Source: a virus
IMG/VR virus record: IMGVR_UViG_3300031918_000174
Location: 1-20,005 of that record
Strand: one strand, 5' to 3'
Length of the DNA: 20,005 nucleotides
This document shows positions 3,074 through 9,944 of this stretch, piece by piece. The first letter of the stretch is position 1. Each line of letters opens with the position of its first letter. The notes under the pieces were generated by a model that was not told the DNA's origin, ran no database searches, and was given only the letters and a program-made list of their open reading frames with translations. Both the position numbers and the translations under genes were made by a program.

Positions 3074-3879
3074 ATAAAAATAATAACTAATTCAAACTCA
3101 AACCAAATTTTACCATCGTAACTAAATTTCTTCGTATTGGCAGATTTATAATAACATTTGTAGTCTACGCCAGAATAATTAAATACTCTTTCTCCTGGTT
3201 TCGATAGGTTATAAAGGAGCGCATTTCTGTTTTTAAAGAAATCCGACATATTTGTTGCCAGCATAAGGCAGTTCAACTTCACTTCTTTCTCTTGAAATAC
3301 TAATCTCCCACTATCGTACCGTGCACCGGATTGAGACTTGACATTTATTGTCAAATTGGGTTTTACGGTTCTTGGTTTTGAAATTTCAGAATCAGAACCC
3401 TCAAGAATAGCTATCCCATATTGCGATAAATCTACTCCGTCAAGTTTATATCCTCTTTGAGAAATAAGATTTGAACTTGGAGCCACATAACTATATCCTT
3501 GCAATGGAAAGTCGTCTGCGAAATTCAAGCTAAACAACCTCAAACTTTCTCCTTTGTAATCAGGACACGAAACAAAACGAAGCGAATTTGTTATTCCTAA
3601 ATAGGTGAAATTTATATCGTGATAAACGCTACCGAAAACAAGTTCCATGAACCCATTAAAGTCAGCATTTGCTTTTGTTCCAAATGATATAGAGAGCTCT
3701 TTTGTGTCTAATTTTGGAGCTGACAAGTCGACCTCAACACCGTCAAGTTCCGCCCAGTTGTTTTTATTCGGTTCTTTTAGTTCAGGAAAAGAAACAAGTC
3801 CATTCAAACCACCCTCGGATATAAATACACCGAAAGCCTGATAGGCATCTATGCCATTAATTGAGAATGAACCTATCAT
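3070..3879 (-). CDS. Distal tail protein (Dit-like)
   Basis: A 269-residue protein lying between the tape measure and the large tail-tip gene, the usual place of Dit, the hexameric ring that joins the tail tube to the baseplate. It has no signal peptide or membrane segment and looks rich in beta strands (for example VEVDLSAPKLDTKELSISFG). It seems to have two halves: residues 1-~140, and a second beginning near GYKLDGVDLSQYGIAILEG, consistent with an N-terminal ring domain and a C-terminal domain. Both junctions are ATGA overlaps (start 3879 over the tape-measure stop; stop 3070-3072 over the next ATG), so translation is likely coupled. The role rests mainly on gene order; the sequence alone would be called a phage tail protein. 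Confidence 0.72.
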   Translation of the reverse strand: MIGSFSINGIDAYQAFGVFISEGGLNGLVSFPELKEPNKNNWAELDGVEVDLSAPKLDTKELSISFGTKANADFNGFMELVFGSVYHDINFTYLGITNSLRFVSCPDYKGESLRLFSLNFADDFPLQGYSYVAPSSNLISQRGYKLDGVDLSQYGIAILEGSDSEISKPRTVKPNLTINVKSQSGARYDSGRLVFQEKEVKLNCLMLATNMSDFFKNRNALLYNLSKPGERVFNYSGVDYKCYYKSANTKKFSYDGKIWFEFELVIIFI

Positions 3880-6800
3880 TGTAATTTTACTCCTTTCATA
3901 TTAATGGTGTCAATCCCTAACTTAACCGCATTTATGCCACTCTCTACAGCCTCTAATCTAGCAGTGTTCGTTTCAATACCTGCAAGATGCTTCAGTGCTT
4001 GTGTTGAGTTTGCTTTTAAAATATCCATTCCCTCTGTTATTTTAAAAGTGTGACCCTGAATAACTGTAAATCTTCCGTTCAATTCGTCTGCACTATCTTG
4101 GTTAATCGAAGCGAATCCTTTCGTTGTGGCTTCTCTTGTTGTTTCGTTCCACAAGTCAAACCCAGCCTTAGACGCTGCATCTTTACTGTTTTGTAAGAAT
4201 TTATTTGCAGCCTCAACGTCAGCTCCTACATTTGAATAGAAATCACCCAGCAAAGCCGTTTCTTTGGCAGCCTGATCTTGTGGAGACAATGACTTATCTG
4301 TAATTATTGCTTTTACGTCATCTGATAATTTTGTGAATTTGTCAGCAAGGAACATTGAATAAGCAATATCTGTCATTAGCTTTTCGATTGTCTTTGCTGA
4401 ATTATCCGCGAACTTGTCGAGTGCGCTTTGAGTATCTCCCAGATTGTCGGTTATGGCCGTCATCATATCCTGACCAAGAGAACCGAAAACGCTAGTTAGG
4501 TAGTCACTTAACGATTTGAGTGCATCCTCATAATCTTTCGTGTAATCTAAAGCTGATTGAAGGGCTTTTTTGCTCGTTTCATCGAGCGTTTGATTATCCA
4601 ATACAGATTGAGCCAGTTCTTTGTTTAATTTACCTTGTCCGTCAATTAATGCCGGATATGTTTTCAGCAAACTAGAGTAATCAGCCTTTTCGCCTCCCCA
4701 ACCAAATAGACCAGTCTTATGCGAACCGGTTTGTACTTTTGCGTTATTCAATGCAGCAATAGCACCTTTGTACTCTCTGACTTCGGGCATTAGATTTGCG
4801 AATACTCCCGTACCTTGCTTTTGCGTAACAGTTGACTCTTTGCTATAAAGAGCCTCTCTCAACTTATCTGCGACCTGAGCGTATCCTATGGCTTGAGAAT
4901 AAGCGTCAGTTCCGAAAATGTTTGTAGCTTTCTCTAGGAGTTCGTTTTGCTTCATAAGCAAATCGTTGTACTCTTTTTGTTGCGCTATCTTTTCATCTCT
5001 TAATTTCTTAAGCGCAGCCTGGTGGGCTTTTTCAGATTCAAATATCTTTGTTGCTACAGATACGGCAAAAGCTACACCAGCACCGATAACACCTCCTTGC
5101 TTGAAACCTTCCATTGTGGAGTTAGCGACGTCCATAACCGCGCCAATGCTTTTTGCTGCGGAGCTGGCAGCGTCACCTTCTTCAGTCGACATTGCATTTA
5201 GAAGCCCTTGAGCTTGCCCGGCAAAGAATGATACCGTTTGAAAAGATTCTTGCAATGCGTCTATGCCTGCTTTTTCTTTTGCAAGTCCGTCCAACTGGTC
5301 TTTATTTCCAATTGAAACTTCTGTTTTGCCCTCTGATACTAATTCGGGTATTCCGCTGTCTATTTTGTTTTTACCACTTTTTACTTTGGCTTTTCCGGCT
5401 GTTTTTTGTTTTGAACCTTCAAACAACTTGCTTATTCCGCTCCCTATTTTTGAAAACCCAGTTTCGAGACTGTCAGCATTTGAATTAATCGACTTTATCT
5501 GATCTTCTATGCTTTTCATTTCTGATTTTCCCAATTTGAGGGAAATCAATTGATCGGCTGAAAGTCCAAATTTAGGAGTAATGTTGTTTACGCTTGTCGT
5601 TTTCAGGTAATCAAATAATGCTTCAGACTCGTTTGCTATTTTGCGAATGTCAGAAACAGACTTATCGGACATATCTCCGAATAATTGAATAAACAACTCA
5701 GTGTTTTTCAGAACACTGTCAGCCTCTTCTTTGTCGTTTGCTTCTATTGCATCCTTATGTTGCCTGTTTAATTCATCCAGTCGAACATTTAGGGCGTCGC
5801 CACTGAACATTGATTTTATAGAAACTTCATCTTGCCAGTATTGCTTGTCTATCTCCCTCCTTTTTTCATCAAACGAAGCATACTTATCTTTAAGTTCTTT
5901 TACAAGTTTATCGCTATTGGATTTATATGTAATTTCTACAACCGTGGAGCTTGCTTTTAGAACACCTTTATTTTCTGCTGACAAGTCAGATATACTATTT
6001 GAAGTTGGTTTGAAAACACCTTTTTTACCACCTTTCTCCCAAGCTAATTTTTCAGCCTCTTGTTGTTTCTCAAGCATATCTTGAGCTTGCTTCTCGATAT
6101 TTAAAAGCTCTTGTTTGTGGTCGTCGTCTATGAGTGCTTTTTTCTTTGCAAAACCGTCTTCTAGCAGGTTATCGAGTGCTTTTTGATTATCAAGTTCTTT
6201 TTGTAATTTATCCAGACCTGATTTAGCAATAAGATTTGTTTCCCTTAATGCTGCATCGGCTATTCCTTGAGCTCTTTTATCAGCATCTTTTTTGTTTTTT
6301 GTGATTGATTTCGTAGACCTGGCACTTAAATGCTTATCAGCTTCGTCGATTAGTTGCTGTTGAGCTTTCCAATCTTTAGTACCTAGCATGTCGTCTCCCA
6401 TTGCTTTTTGGGAGTCTGTCGCTTTTTTCTTTTGATCTTCCCAGAATGCAGCATTCTTGACTACAATTACATTTCTACTATTTAATGCAGCCTCAAGAGA
6501 GGAGTTTTGAGATTTTATTTCGTCTGCATTGAAATAACCAAGCGAGCCAACTTTACCTACAGAATCAGACTTTCCACTTTCTTTTATAGCAGAAAGAATT
6601 TTGTTTCTTTTGGCAATTTCGGCTTTCACTTGAGCATCTGTCATTTTGGATATGGAGGATGTCCAAGATGCCACACTGTCTTTTTCAACGTCTTGTTGAT
6701 ATAGTCTTTTCTTGCTTTGAAGTTCAACTATAAACTTCTCAAGCGAAACTATTGAGTGAGCAGTTCCCTCGGTAACTCTGTCCGAGTTTTTTAATCCGGT

Positions 6801-8252
6801 TATTTTATTTTGAGCGTCTTGAATTTGTTTGTCAATTCCTGAAACCTTATCCTTATTCCCTTGAACTGACTTTACGGAATCAGCCTCTGAAATTTGTTTT
6901 TTAAGCTTAAGAATATCAGCCAGTTTTAAATTTTCAATGTCATACTTCGCGAATATCTCTGGATATTTCTTTTTTAGAGATTCAAGAGCTCCGATACGTT
7001 CCATATCAGCAAGAGCCTGGTTAGTCGCTGCACCAATCAACTTTTCAATTTCTCCGCGATGTTTTTCCTCGGCTTCTGTAGCCAACTTCTTTTCTTCATT
7101 ATACGCCAATTGTGCTTTTTCGGCAGCTGTTGTACTATCATGTAACGCCCACATTGCCACAGCAACGCCAGCTATAGCCATAGCGACCAAAACATAAGGG
7201 TTTGATAGCATTGCTTTGTTTAATGCCAATTGAGCAGCCGTAAGCTTGCTTTTTACAACAGCAGCTATACCTTCAGTTGTAGATAATGTAATTGTGGAGC
7301 CTGCATTTGCGATATTGGCTAAAACCTGTTGGTATGCAATCTCCTTTTGAATGAGATTTATCGCATTTATTGTCATTACAGCAGCTTTGTAAGTTCCGTA
7401 GACAGCGATTAAACCAGCTATCACTTTACCTACTTGCTCGTAATGCTCAACTATGAATGTAGCCCCTAGTATTGCATCAGAGATAACTCCCTCATTGGAT
7501 TGGCCTATTGCATTGAATGATCTTGAAATTGTATCTCCAAGGTTGGATATTTGCCCGTTGATATTCTTGCTCTTTTCTTCCATTAGGTTGTAGAACATTC
7601 CACCGGAAGCCGTTAGGTTTTCAATTACCTTTTGAACTTCTGGGAATCCTACTTTACCACTTGAAATGAGTTTTTGAACTTCACCGTCAGCAACGCCCAT
7701 TTGTTTTGCCAATTCGTGAATCATGGGCACGCCCGCTTCTGTAAATTGGCGGAGGTCATCACCCATTAATTTCCCTTTTGCCTTTACCTGGCCATAAACC
7801 ATGATAAGGCGACTAATGGGAACGCTAAGACCTGAAGATATATTTCCGAGTCTTATGAGTGTGTCGTTTACGTCTTCTTGAGCAACTTGGTAGGCTAGGA
7901 GCTGTTTAGCCCCACCTGCTACTTCTTGGAGTGTGAATGGTGTTTTGGCAGCCGTGTTTACCATTTGGTTCATAAGCTCTGTTGATTTAGCTTTACTTCC
8001 CAACATGGTGGTGAATCCAGTCTCTAAGTCTTGGAACTCTCCGCGAACATTAGCAACTTCTTTTACAAACCCGGCAACGGCTGCAACAGATAAATATCCG
8101 GCAATAGATTTGCCAATATTGGCAAATTGACTGTCCAGTCTTTGACCCTGAATTTCGGCACTATTTCCGATACTGTTTAGTATCGCTTTAGCCTTGTCGG
8201 AGTCACGAAGTAACTGATCTGTGTCTAATCCTATGCCGTACCAATTATCCAT
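3876..8252 (-). CDS. Tail tape measure protein
   Basis: At 1458 residues this is the longest complete gene here. It follows the tail chaperone, as tape measures do. Residues ~60-250 carry the TP901-type tape-measure core, with recognisable stretches such as MLGSKAKSTELMNQ, TPFTLQEVAGGAKQLLAYQ and MGDDLRQFTEAGVPMI. Hydrophobic segments sit near residues 268-290 (IAGLIAVYGTYKAAV), 347-370 (YVLVAMAIAGVAVAMWAL) and 1051-1069 (GAGVAFAVSVATKIF). Between and after them are long Lys/Glu/Gln-rich helical regions (~380-900) likely to form coiled coils. The protein fills the tail tube, sets its length and may enter the host membrane at injection. At about 0.15 nm per residue it predicts a tail near 220 nm (inference). 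The ATG overlaps the end of the frameshifted chaperone frame by 8 bases. The C-terminal repeat-like end (IETNTARLEAVESGINAV) is typical of Bacteroidota versions. Confidence 0.95.
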   Translation of the reverse strand: MDNWYGIGLDTDQLLRDSDKAKAILNSIGNSAEIQGQRLDSQFANIGKSIAGYLSVAAVAGFVKEVANVRGEFQDLETGFTTMLGSKAKSTELMNQMVNTAAKTPFTLQEVAGGAKQLLAYQVAQEDVNDTLIRLGNISSGLSVPISRLIMVYGQVKAKGKLMGDDLRQFTEAGVPMIHELAKQMGVADGEVQKLISSGKVGFPEVQKVIENLTASGGMFYNLMEEKSKNINGQISNLGDTISRSFNAIGQSNEGVISDAILGATFIVEHYEQVGKVIAGLIAVYGTYKAAVMTINAINLIQKEIAYQQVLANIANAGSTITLSTTEGIAAVVKSKLTAAQLALNKAMLSNPYVLVAMAIAGVAVAMWALHDSTTAAEKAQLAYNEEKKLATEAEEKHRGEIEKLIGAATNQALADMERIGALESLKKKYPEIFAKYDIENLKLADILKLKKQISEADSVKSVQGNKDKVSGIDKQIQDAQNKITGLKNSDRVTEGTAHSIVSLEKFIVELQSKKRLYQQDVEKDSVASWTSSISKMTDAQVKAEIAKRNKILSAIKESGKSDSVGKVGSLGYFNADEIKSQNSSLEAALNSRNVIVVKNAAFWEDQKKKATDSQKAMGDDMLGTKDWKAQQQLIDEADKHLSARSTKSITKNKKDADKRAQGIADAALRETNLIAKSGLDKLQKELDNQKALDNLLEDGFAKKKALIDDDHKQELLNIEKQAQDMLEKQQEAEKLAWEKGGKKGVFKPTSNSISDLSAENKGVLKASSTVVEITYKSNSDKLVKELKDKYASFDEKRREIDKQYWQDEVSIKSMFSGDALNVRLDELNRQHKDAIEANDKEEADSVLKNTELFIQLFGDMSDKSVSDIRKIANESEALFDYLKTTSVNNITPKFGLSADQLISLKLGKSEMKSIEDQIKSINSNADSLETGFSKIGSGISKLFEGSKQKTAGKAKVKSGKNKIDSGIPELVSEGKTEVSIGNKDQLDGLAKEKAGIDALQESFQTVSFFAGQAQGLLNAMSTEEGDAASSAAKSIGAVMDVANSTMEGFKQGGVIGAGVAFAVSVATKIFESEKAHQAALKKLRDEKIAQQKEYNDLLMKQNELLEKATNIFGTDAYSQAIGYAQVADKLREALYSKESTVTQKQGTGVFANLMPEVREYKGAIAALNNAKVQTGSHKTGLFGWGGEKADYSSLLKTYPALIDGQGKLNKELAQSVLDNQTLDETSKKALQSALDYTKDYEDALKSLSDYLTSVFGSLGQDMMTAITDNLGDTQSALDKFADNSAKTIEKLMTDIAYSMFLADKFTKLSDDVKAIITDKSLSPQDQAAKETALLGDFYSNVGADVEAANKFLQNSKDAASKAGFDLWNETTREATTKGFASINQDSADELNGRFTVIQGHTFKITEGMDILKANSTQALKHLAGIETNTARLEAVESGINAVKLGIDTINMKGVKLQ

Positions 8253-8505
8253 ATAGAATCTTATTTACTTTGTCTTTGTTTTTTGGGTCGTCAGCCCTAA
8301 TTATTTCATCTTCTTTTTCGTCATCGTGACTTGGGAGTACTGCGCTGTAAAGAATCAGATTAGCATAGCTTAACTCGTTCAGAACATAATCAGGAGTTAG
8401 TGTGTAGCTCTTGCATACTCCAGCTACAACCGCCCATATGCTATCGCTTAAACTTTCGTCGTCTTTAGTAGATTTACATCTCTTAGGAAAATTATAGTGT
8501 TCAAA
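8245..8505 (-). CDS. Tail assembly chaperone frameshift extension (gpT-like part of G-T fusion)
   Basis: This frame has no start codon of its own in a sensible place. It is reached by a -1 shift from the upstream chaperone gene at the T run 8503-8511. It encodes 86 residues (FEHYNFPKRC ... NKDKVNKILYG) and ends in TAA at 8245-8247, overlapping the tape-measure start by 8 bases. The content looks like real protein: SDSIWAVVAGVCKSY, TPDYVLNELSYANLI, and an Asp/Glu/Lys-rich tail, similar in style to the T half of tail chaperones. With 143 residues of the upstream frame the fusion is 229 residues. In lambda-like phages the minor G-T product binds the tape measure and recruits tube subunits while the G form coats it. 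The open frame across the junction is seen; the use of the shift is inferred from family knowledge. Confidence 0.8.
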   Translation of the reverse strand, partial: FEHYNFPKRCKSTKDDESLSDSIWAVVAGVCKSYTLTPDYVLNELSYANLILYSAVLPSHDDEKEDEIIRADDPKNKDKVNKILYG

Positions 8506-8933
8506 AAAAAAGCGACTTTCATGCTTTCAAGGGCTGAAAATGTGTATTCAAATATCTCTTCCGGGCTTAGCTCAAGTAGAATCTGTTTGGCTAACTCCTC
8601 TCGTGGGTAGTATGTCGACTTTATTTTAGTGGGGATGAATCCGAACTTATATTTTTTTGTGATAACCTCTATTGGCTCTAGGTTCTTTTTTCCTAAAATA
8701 AGTATAGCGAGTATGTCGCTAATGTATTCACACTCGGAAGCATGAGCTAGAACCTCGTATATTACTCTTTTTTCGTCCTCAACATGAAGTTCAGGTAGTG
8801 TTGAGATATATTTAGAGACTTCAATAAGCGTTGCAGCCGTTGGCTTTTGTGTCATGTACTCATTATCTCCTATTCGTATGATCGAGGAGTTCTGAAGTAT
8901 CGTATCGGCTGTTTTTGATTCTGCTGTATTCAT
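8448..8933 (-). CDS. Tail assembly chaperone, zero-frame product (gpG-like)
   Basis: A 161-residue soluble protein directly upstream of the tape measure, the position of the tail assembly chaperone in siphophages. No membrane segment or known catalytic motif is visible; it looks largely helical (for example LIEVSKYISTLPELH, LAKQILLELSPEEIFEYTFSALESMKVAFF). The last 18 residues after AFF (LNTIIFLRDVNLLKTTKV) are translated only when ribosomes do not slip on the T9 run. When they slip, residue 143 is followed by the 86-residue extension. The ATG at 8933 lies 14 bases after the 3' end of the tRNA, with an A/T-rich leader and no Shine-Dalgarno sequence. The call rests on position plus the frameshift architecture rather than strong sequence identity. 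Confidence 0.8.
   Translation of the reverse strand: MNTAESKTADTILQNSSIIRIGDNEYMTQKPTAATLIEVSKYISTLPELHVEDEKRVIYEVLAHASECEYISDILAILILGKKNLEPIEVITKKYKFGFIPTKIKSTYYPREELAKQILLELSPEEIFEYTFSALESMKVAFFLNTIIFLRDVNLLKTTKV
8503..8511 (-). promoter_or_regulatory. Slippery site for -1 programmed frameshifting (T9 run)
   Basis: On the minus strand the chaperone gene reads GCT TTT TTT TTG. The heptamer T TTT TTT fits the X XXY YYZ slippery rule, and a -1 slip puts ribosomes into an open frame of 86 codons that ends at the tape-measure start. No strong stem or pseudoknot is obvious just downstream; only a weak AGAT-GTAA-ATCT hairpin was seen. RNA polymerase slippage on the T9 run, inserting one U, would give the same fusion. 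Confidence 0.72.
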
Positions 8934-8947
8934 TCTATTTAATTTTG

Positions 8948-9021
8948 AGCCTCCTATAGGATTCGAACCTATGACCTAAACATTACAAATGTTCCGCTCT
9001 GGCCAACTGAGCTAAAAAGGC
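8948..9021 (-). tRNA. tRNA-Thr (anticodon UGU)
   Basis: The minus strand folds into a complete cloverleaf of 74 bases. Acceptor GCCTTTT pairs with AGGAGGC (two G-U pairs), the D stem is GCTC/GAGC, the anticodon stem GAACA/TGTTT encloses loop TTTGTAA with anticodon TGT at 8985-8987, and the T arm is ATAGG-TTCGAAT-CCTAT. Position 73 is T and no CCA is encoded (CAA follows), so CCA must be added. It reads ACA codons. It sits between the tail tube and tail chaperone genes. Confidence 0.95.
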
Positions 9022-9029
9022 AATTTTTA

Positions 9030-9059
9030 AAAACGGACTTACCTAGATAAATCCGTTTT
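9030..9059 (-). terminator. Hairpin between tail tube gene and tRNA (possible terminator or processing site)
   Basis: Four bases after the tail-tube stop the minus strand has a 12-bp stem AAAACGGATTTA / TAAGTCCGTTTT with a 6-base loop. One pair is G-U on the minus strand but C-A on the plus strand, which argues that the functional RNA comes from the minus strand. The trailing U run is mostly inside the stem, followed by TAAAAATT, so termination may be weak. It could instead attenuate, or protect the 3' end of the very abundant tube mRNA and separate it from the tRNA. Confidence 0.5.
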
Positions 9060-9063
9060 ATTT

Positions 9064-9516
9064 TTAAGCTTTTGTGTAAGGCTTCAAAATGTTGCCAGTT
9101 GCTGGCTCAAGTGCATCGCAAGTGTACTTCCATTTTTTACCGTCTTTCGGAGTGTAAGTATCTTCAACCTGAACTGATACTTTGTCAAGAATAAAGCCTT
9201 CCAATGTTTCATCTTCCGGTGTCAATCTTACAGCATAATGTTCTACTACTACTCCGTCATTATCGACGATTGGTTTTGTTTTGCCTTTTTTGGCGTACAA
9301 CTCAAACTCAAATGCGTATGAGTTTTTAGCATACTTGGCATCTACTACGCCACCGCCCTCTTGTTTTGCCTCTGACTTAGTTCCCTTTGTAGGAGTCAAC
9401 TTGGTAGTATCTTCCACCGGGGTGTCAACTACCGTCCAAACAGGAGAAGCTGGCATTGCATCGGCTACGTATGCGCAAATTTCAATTTTAGGTTTACCCC
9501 ATGATAATGTTGCCAT
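9064..9516 (-). CDS. Major tail tube protein
   Basis: A 150-residue protein starting MATLSWGKPKIEI. The frame extends 15 codons upstream to 9561, but that would overlap the previous gene, and MATLSWGKP is the natural start, 11 bases after the preceding stop. Position between the tail-completion gene and the chaperone is that of the tail tube subunit, whose hexamers stack around the tape measure. Composition fits a beta-sandwich tube protein: short strands (AYVADAM, SYAFEFELYAK, HYAVRLTPEDE, VSVQVEDTY) and a Thr/Lys/Gly-rich loop near residues 35-60. No membrane segment or signal peptide. A hairpin directly follows the stop, as expected for a highly expressed structural gene. Confidence 0.78.
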   Translation of the reverse strand: MATLSWGKPKIEICAYVADAMPASPVWTVVDTPVEDTTKLTPTKGTKSEAKQEGGGVVDAKYAKNSYAFEFELYAKKGKTKPIVDNDGVVVEHYAVRLTPEDETLEGFILDKVSVQVEDTYTPKDGKKWKYTCDALEPATGNILKPYTKA

Positions 9517-9527
9517 GATTTTATGTA

Positions 9528-9944
9528 TTAAAATGTTGAACGTTTGAATTTCAATCTGCAATTGACGAAATACTGATCTATGTCATCAACTTTGAATGAT
9601 TTTATAATTGAATCTAAACTAAATTTATACTCCCCTGATAAACTGATTGATTCTACGAGATTCTCACAGATTCTCTCAATTTCAAGACAACGAGATACGT
9701 TTTTGACCAATACACCTTTGTTTTGACCATTGTCTATGTTTGGAACATAAACATTGAGGTTGAAAACACCGGTTTGTATCTCTCCGTCAACTCCCGCCAG
9801 AAACGAAATAACTGCATCTTCAACTTTCGAATCAATAGGTCTTATACCTTCTCGGTAAACCAAACCTTTGATTATACTTTTCAGAATGCTTGTTTTCAGA
9901 ATATTGAAAACGTCTGTTTCTATCTCCCCGGCTGTCTTTCTCAT
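9528..9944 (-). CDS. Tail completion / tail terminator-like protein
   Basis: A 138-residue protein starting MRKTAGEIETDVFNIL. It lies between the gp10-like neck gene and the tail tube, the place of the tail terminator that caps the tube and docks it to the head. The start overlaps the upstream stop as ATGA (9941-9944). An N-terminal helix (residues ~4-27) is followed by alternating strands with the segment VFNLNVYVPNIDNGQNKGVL and a C-terminal FVNCRLKFKRSTF, reminiscent of the alpha/beta fold of terminator proteins. I recognise no diagnostic motif, so the call comes from order and size. Confidence 0.6.
   Translation of the reverse strand: MRKTAGEIETDVFNILKTSILKSIIKGLVYREGIRPIDSKVEDAVISFLAGVDGEIQTGVFNLNVYVPNIDNGQNKGVLVKNVSRCLEIERICENLVESISLSGEYKFSLDSIIKSFKVDDIDQYFVNCRLKFKRSTF

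Follow-up and report, generated by a model that had tools for sequence, protein, structure and literature searches.

The slippery sequence of phage lambda gene G is G GGA AAG. From it the lambda G/GT locus makes a short product and a fusion extended by a −1 shift, directly before the tape measure gene (PMC5009743). The gene described here has the same layout, but its family slips on U UUU UUU or U UUU UUC, and there is no detectable sequence similarity between its chaperone and that of lambda. Two further differences are that here a class of nine-T sites lacking a stimulator stands beside a hairpin class, and that a tRNA-like element lies in front of the chaperone gene. The two site classes recall dnaX, for which Larsen et al. 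2000 reportedly described polymerase slippage on A9 in Thermus versus ribosomal frameshifting with stimulators in E. coli. As with dnaX, homologues appear to recode either by a bare nine-base run or by a heptamer with RNA signals; here, however, the gene is a phage tail gene, the run is of T rather than A, both solutions occur within one close family, and slippage is proposed from sequence. The tRNA-like element recalls mitochondrial tRNA punctuation, in that two protein genes of one strand are separated by a tRNA or a fold resembling one, and cutting would give mRNA ends, but here the setting is a bacterial phage tail operon, many records have just one such site per genome, and the processing is putative. 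The protein families PHROG 12247, 25685 and 11996 match the zero frame, the extension or a longer form of the gene product; they are filed as separate unknown proteins, whereas in the present reading a single recoded gene encodes them all.

We analyzed a 20,005-nt stretch of a viral record (the window), from a phage of gut type, in which the following features, all on the minus strand, concern the recoded gene and its neighbors.

8448–8933, minus strand: short-form chaperone ORF in the zero frame, 161 aa, stop within these coordinates
8503–8511, minus strand: nine-T recoding site, zero frame GCT TTT TTT TTG AAC, with the heptamer T TTT TTT at 8511–8505
8245–8505, minus strand: C-terminal extension read in the −1 frame, with 86 residues past the slip and the stop TAA at 8247–8245
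3876–8252, minus strand: tape measure protein gene (PF20155, 2e-27; phrog_9959, 2e-220; TIGR02675)
9064–9561, minus strand: tail gene upstream of the chaperone (phrog_17745, unknown function; role from gene order)

The gene at 8933–8245 is, very probably, a tail assembly chaperone gene of the lambda G/GT type in a siphophage of Bacteroidota, its two products being made through a −1 shift. Standard decoding would yield the short form of 161 aa, whereas ribosomes or transcripts with a net −1 shift at the nine T would yield a 229-aa fusion, ending in ...NKILYG in the window translation, whose C-terminal part would be the analogue of the T domain. By analogy with lambda, the short form would coat the tape measure protein and the fusion would recruit the tail tube protein. 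A first-pass annotation of the window had proposed such a chaperone, with a zero-frame stop at 8448 and products of 161 and 229 residues; ORF 8933–8448 and both frame lengths bear this out, and the heptamer T TTT TTT is in the phase it claimed for a −1 shift, as the reading GCT TTT TTT TTG makes clear. It was also right that a TAA closes the otherwise open −1 frame, but this TAA does not overlap the tape measure ATG (8252–8250). Instead it spans codons 2–3 of the tape measure gene, the chaperone extension overlapping the first tape measure codons. The −1 frame is already open upstream of the T run, and this run is the longest A/T run anywhere in the window. A separate contig, 99% identical, also has nine T.

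Gene order fits a tail assembly chaperone, and fold similarity points weakly the same way. The order is terminase, portal, small head-tail genes, tail gene, chaperone and tape measure, with the tape measure gene (start 8252, identified by PF20155, phrog_9959 and TIGR02675) directly following the chaperone. The AlphaFold2 model of the short form was confident (pLDDT 87), and a Foldseek search of it against the viral database BFVD returned tail assembly chaperones at probabilities of 0.77–0.94 with weak E values (0.05–0.25), phage N15 GT among them at 0.94. Foldseek against the PDB matched no solved structure, and no Pfam model matches either chaperone half. The upstream gene at 9064–9561 matched phrog_17745, and no profile names it a tail tube protein; from gene order it is probably the major tail protein.

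We collected about 110 related loci from viral contig and genome searches, placing their domains by profile. The initial searches used peptide patterns containing FFF, with a possible bias toward slippery runs; a zero-frame profile search and an extension-pattern search, both free of that bias, agreed on the −1 relation. At 100 loci the N-terminal domain and the extension were in the −1 relation and met precisely on a U UUU UUY heptamer, which was U UUU UUC (a six-T run) in 62, T9 in 33, T7 in 3 and T8 in 2. Among these were loci that came solely from the zero-frame profile or solely from the extension patterns. The base 5′ of the two Phe codons was invariably T, though the codons GCT, GGT and TCT permit other third bases. 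The proposal of a lambda-like recoded chaperone is thus supported by some 100 loci, by adjacency to the tape measure gene and, weakly, by fold. Another T count and an unconserved extension, which the first-pass annotation had named as counter-evidence, were looked for in the relatives; neither occurred.

The zero frame matched phrog_12247 (2e-30), and the extension on its own matched phrog_25685 (4e-18) and phrog_11996 (1e-7). Because zero frame and extension match PHROG families separately, the two-frame architecture is beyond chance. All 69 aligned extensions matched phrog_25685, a profile of 67 positions whose start corresponds to roughly residue 30 of the extension; it thus seems that the extension is at present annotated as a small ORF in its own right.

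The −1 relation held in every close relative except L054 (2452–3201), where a single additional base, either a sequencing error or a true variant, brings the two domains into frame and makes the fusion the sole product. Farther out, L048–L051 and L053 keep the −1 relation at sites that read T TTT TTG or are unclear. Recoding appears not to be indispensable in the wider family, because four distant loci (L012, L013, L015 and L115) encode both chaperone domains in a single frame with no shift site. A tblastn search of 50,697 phage records with the fusion proteins found no annotated relative and one weak unannotated match. Annotated relatives came from a search with the tape measure protein, and were Riemerella phages and Bacteroides phage p00. 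In Riemerella phage RAP44 (L113, 366–1030) and phage p00 (L114, 2677–3407) the two halves are annotated as two hypothetical genes, in the −1 relation; in the Riemerella phages and p00 the first ORF and the extension likewise occupy different frames, yet a search for a U UUU UUY site identified none.

Could the T run instead come from faulty sequencing or assembly, or be a tract that varies in phase, in a gene that is really single-framed? Homopolymers are error-prone, and the one-base difference in L054 does join both domains in frame. Yet the run length was exactly nine in 33 of 33 T9-class loci, which come from many samples, and in 62 others the −1 relation is achieved through T6, which is not an error-prone long run. 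Because of the T9 constancy and the T6 loci, this explanation is refuted at the family level, and we regard it as highly implausible for the window.

The signals around the junction fall into two classes. In the 60 nt downstream of the heptamer, folding of the T6–8 class (U UUU UUC) gave a mean z of −2.43, with neighboring windows near 0; the same region of T9 sites gave a mean of −0.45, and the window's own value was near 0. The underlying stem begins 7 nt 3′ of the heptamer, where CCACTTTCC pairs with GGAAAGTGG across a loop of 21–36 nt. It had 8–9 of 9 pairs in 47 of 48 distinct T6–8 sites, with covarying changes CCGTTTCCC/GGGAGACGG, CCATTTCCC/GGGAAATGG and CCGCTTCCC/GGGGAGCGG, and was present in only one of 25 distinct T9 sites, the other 24, window included, lacking it. 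Counted as distinct sequences, there were 53 T6–8 with the stem, 22 T9 without, 1 T9 with and 1 T6–8 without, L025 and L110 being the two that break the pattern. On a tree built without the junction region, site class and stem each required 8 changes, with just two independent contrasts on well-supported branches. Site class and stem have likely been exchanged repeatedly in the family.

The relatives with U UUU UUC and a hairpin have the arrangement of canonical ribosomal −1 frameshifting. The window does not belong with them: a stem 5–9 nt after its heptamer was looked for and is absent. The earlier remark that no stimulatory stem is visible was correct, and comparison with relatives indicates that the lack is real, since the window belongs to the nine-T class, which is generally stem-less. 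What the window has instead, nine T and no stem, matches the description of a transcriptional slippage site, namely an A/T homopolymer of at least about eight with no ribosomal stimulator. Homopolymers of 8 or more are transcriptional slip sites (PMC3711429), and slippage of about 20% was reported on A11, with similar slippage for Yersinia tssM3 (A9), without ribosomal signals (PMC4256274).

We see about an even chance that the bare U9 works by RNA polymerase slippage that adds one U. That both polymerase and ribosome slip there is improbable. Ordinary ribosomal −1 frameshifting, in which the long U run re-pairs both tRNA-Phe and makes the hairpin dispensable, is possible, although we lean away from it. 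It gains from the exact phase of U UUU UUU and from the same register being held by the hairpin-bearing relatives. Against it stand positions T8 and T9, which lie outside the heptamer but are still T in 33 of 33 T9 loci, a constancy that would favor the run itself as the selected feature; moreover, where polymerase slippage operates one expects a run of 8 or longer and no stimulator, as here (PMC3711429, PMC4256274). Overall, a known kind of recoding system with a new twist in its signals is well supported by these sequence comparisons.

The more surprising part of the locus is the tRNA-like element. A tRNA gene just upstream of the chaperone had been overlooked in the first-pass annotation. 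Between the upstream tail gene and the chaperone gene lie the following.

9030–9059, minus strand: terminator-like hairpin of 13 bp with a T run after it, on the tail-gene side of the tRNA-like element
8948–9021, minus strand: tRNA-Thr(UGU)-like element (ARAGORN; Rfam RF00005 at 66.7 bits, cut-off 29)
8934–8947, minus strand: A/T-rich 14-nt leader from the element to the chaperone ATG, beginning with C74

The window element, 14 nt upstream of the chaperone ATG, has a normal anticodon arm, in which five pairs carry a loop of seven bases that includes U33. In most relatives the corresponding place before the chaperone gene is likewise occupied by a tRNA-like element. A covariance model built from the elements of 35 relatives had changes on both sides in 20 of 21 pairs, and 94% of its cells were paired, against 68% when shuffled. 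Run on both strands of about 676 kb, it gave 65 matches, all directly upstream of the chaperone gene, and no copy anywhere else in that sequence; one further match is in L115, whose chaperone is fused in frame. In many phage records the element is the sole Rfam tRNA match. Weak second tRNA-like matches at G410:C1:33542-33602 and G438:C1:32112-32175 may be similar elements at another gene junction.

Two links between element and recoding were considered and rejected. One was a tRNA-Phe supplying the slippery codons, as ARAGORN called Phe in L022 and L026; the identity varies, and both of these have abnormal anticodon loops. The other was a dependence of recoding on the element; both site classes occur with and without it, and L115 combines an element with an in-frame chaperone. 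Since both classes occur either way, the tRNA-like element is, on this comparison, independent of recoding.

Might the element simply be a tRNA gene by which the phage provides an initiator tRNA or a rare one? In the window it scores well as tRNA-Thr(UGU), at 66.7 bits, and the anticodon arm is normal in 27 of 47 distinct copies, most of them with CAU; the majority of elements are initiator-tRNA-like with a CAU anticodon, and pair 1:72 is non-standard in 23 of 35. But the identity varies while the position, before one gene, is fixed. About 20 of the 47 distinct copies have no usable anticodon arm (loops of 2–76 nt, or no U33), while the acceptor stem persists in all copies (5–7 of 7 pairs), as do the T-arm, kept in every distinct copy, and C74. 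We consider a plain tRNA gene unlikely. In L073 and L076 (2740–2871) a 76-nt insert replaces the anticodon loop, and the element ends 108 nt before the start codon. Otherwise the elements end 13–45 nt before it, the two copies with the insert being those at 108 nt.

That spacing, nearly universal and with an A/T-rich single-stranded leader, would also suit an element left uncut in the mRNA, as a structured leader that controls chaperone translation or binds a protein. This account, which we think distinctly unlikely, fits poorly with two features that suggest tRNA-maturation enzymes. First, the unpaired C74 after the discriminator is conserved as in chromosomal tRNA genes: it is C in 45 of 46 distinct elements, against a leader that is only 14% C, a difference whose p-value ignores relatedness among the elements. 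Position 75 is mostly non-C. In chromosomal tRNA genes sampled from the genomes carrying L011 and L014, C74 was present in 20 of 20, and C75 was mostly absent too in those of the L011-carrying genome. We read the constancy of C74 as a probable retained signature of pre-tRNA processing. Second, L011 and L039 retain a bare acceptor/T-arm helix as the only clear part of the element. The minimal substrate of RNase P is the acceptor/T-arm helix.

We infer that the element is a processing signal of pre-tRNA type, separating the mRNA of the upstream tail gene from that of the chaperone. In the simplest model, host RNase P and 3′ processing enzymes would cut at the element, and the mRNA of the tail protein would part from that of the chaperone and tape measure, the latter headed by a short A/T-rich leader. 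Such a leader suits Bacteroidota because their mRNAs lack Shine-Dalgarno sequences (PMC6847099). Hairpins 5′ of the element are common in relatives (mean z −2.13, versus about −0.5 in the upstream coding region), which suggests that the hairpin marks the 3′ end of the upstream mRNA. Taking both parts together, we give slightly less than even odds to the reading that a pre-tRNA-like element, mostly initiator-like and often without an anticodon arm, punctuates the tail operon of a large family of Bacteroidota siphophages, in which the chaperone gene swaps between hairpin frameshifting and polymerase slippage on a bare T9. Searching open-licence papers for tRNA-like elements in phage tail operons turned up nothing relevant, which is weak evidence.

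From these results, three phage protein families so far without a function gain a likely one, and annotation is seen to split one recoded gene in two. The family also provides natural variants of a single gene, some with a heptamer and hairpin and others with a bare U9, making the question of replacement between ribosome and polymerase testable. If the processing reading is true, the element would be a means, of which we found no earlier description, for a phage to divide an operon transcript via the tRNA maturation enzymes of its host.
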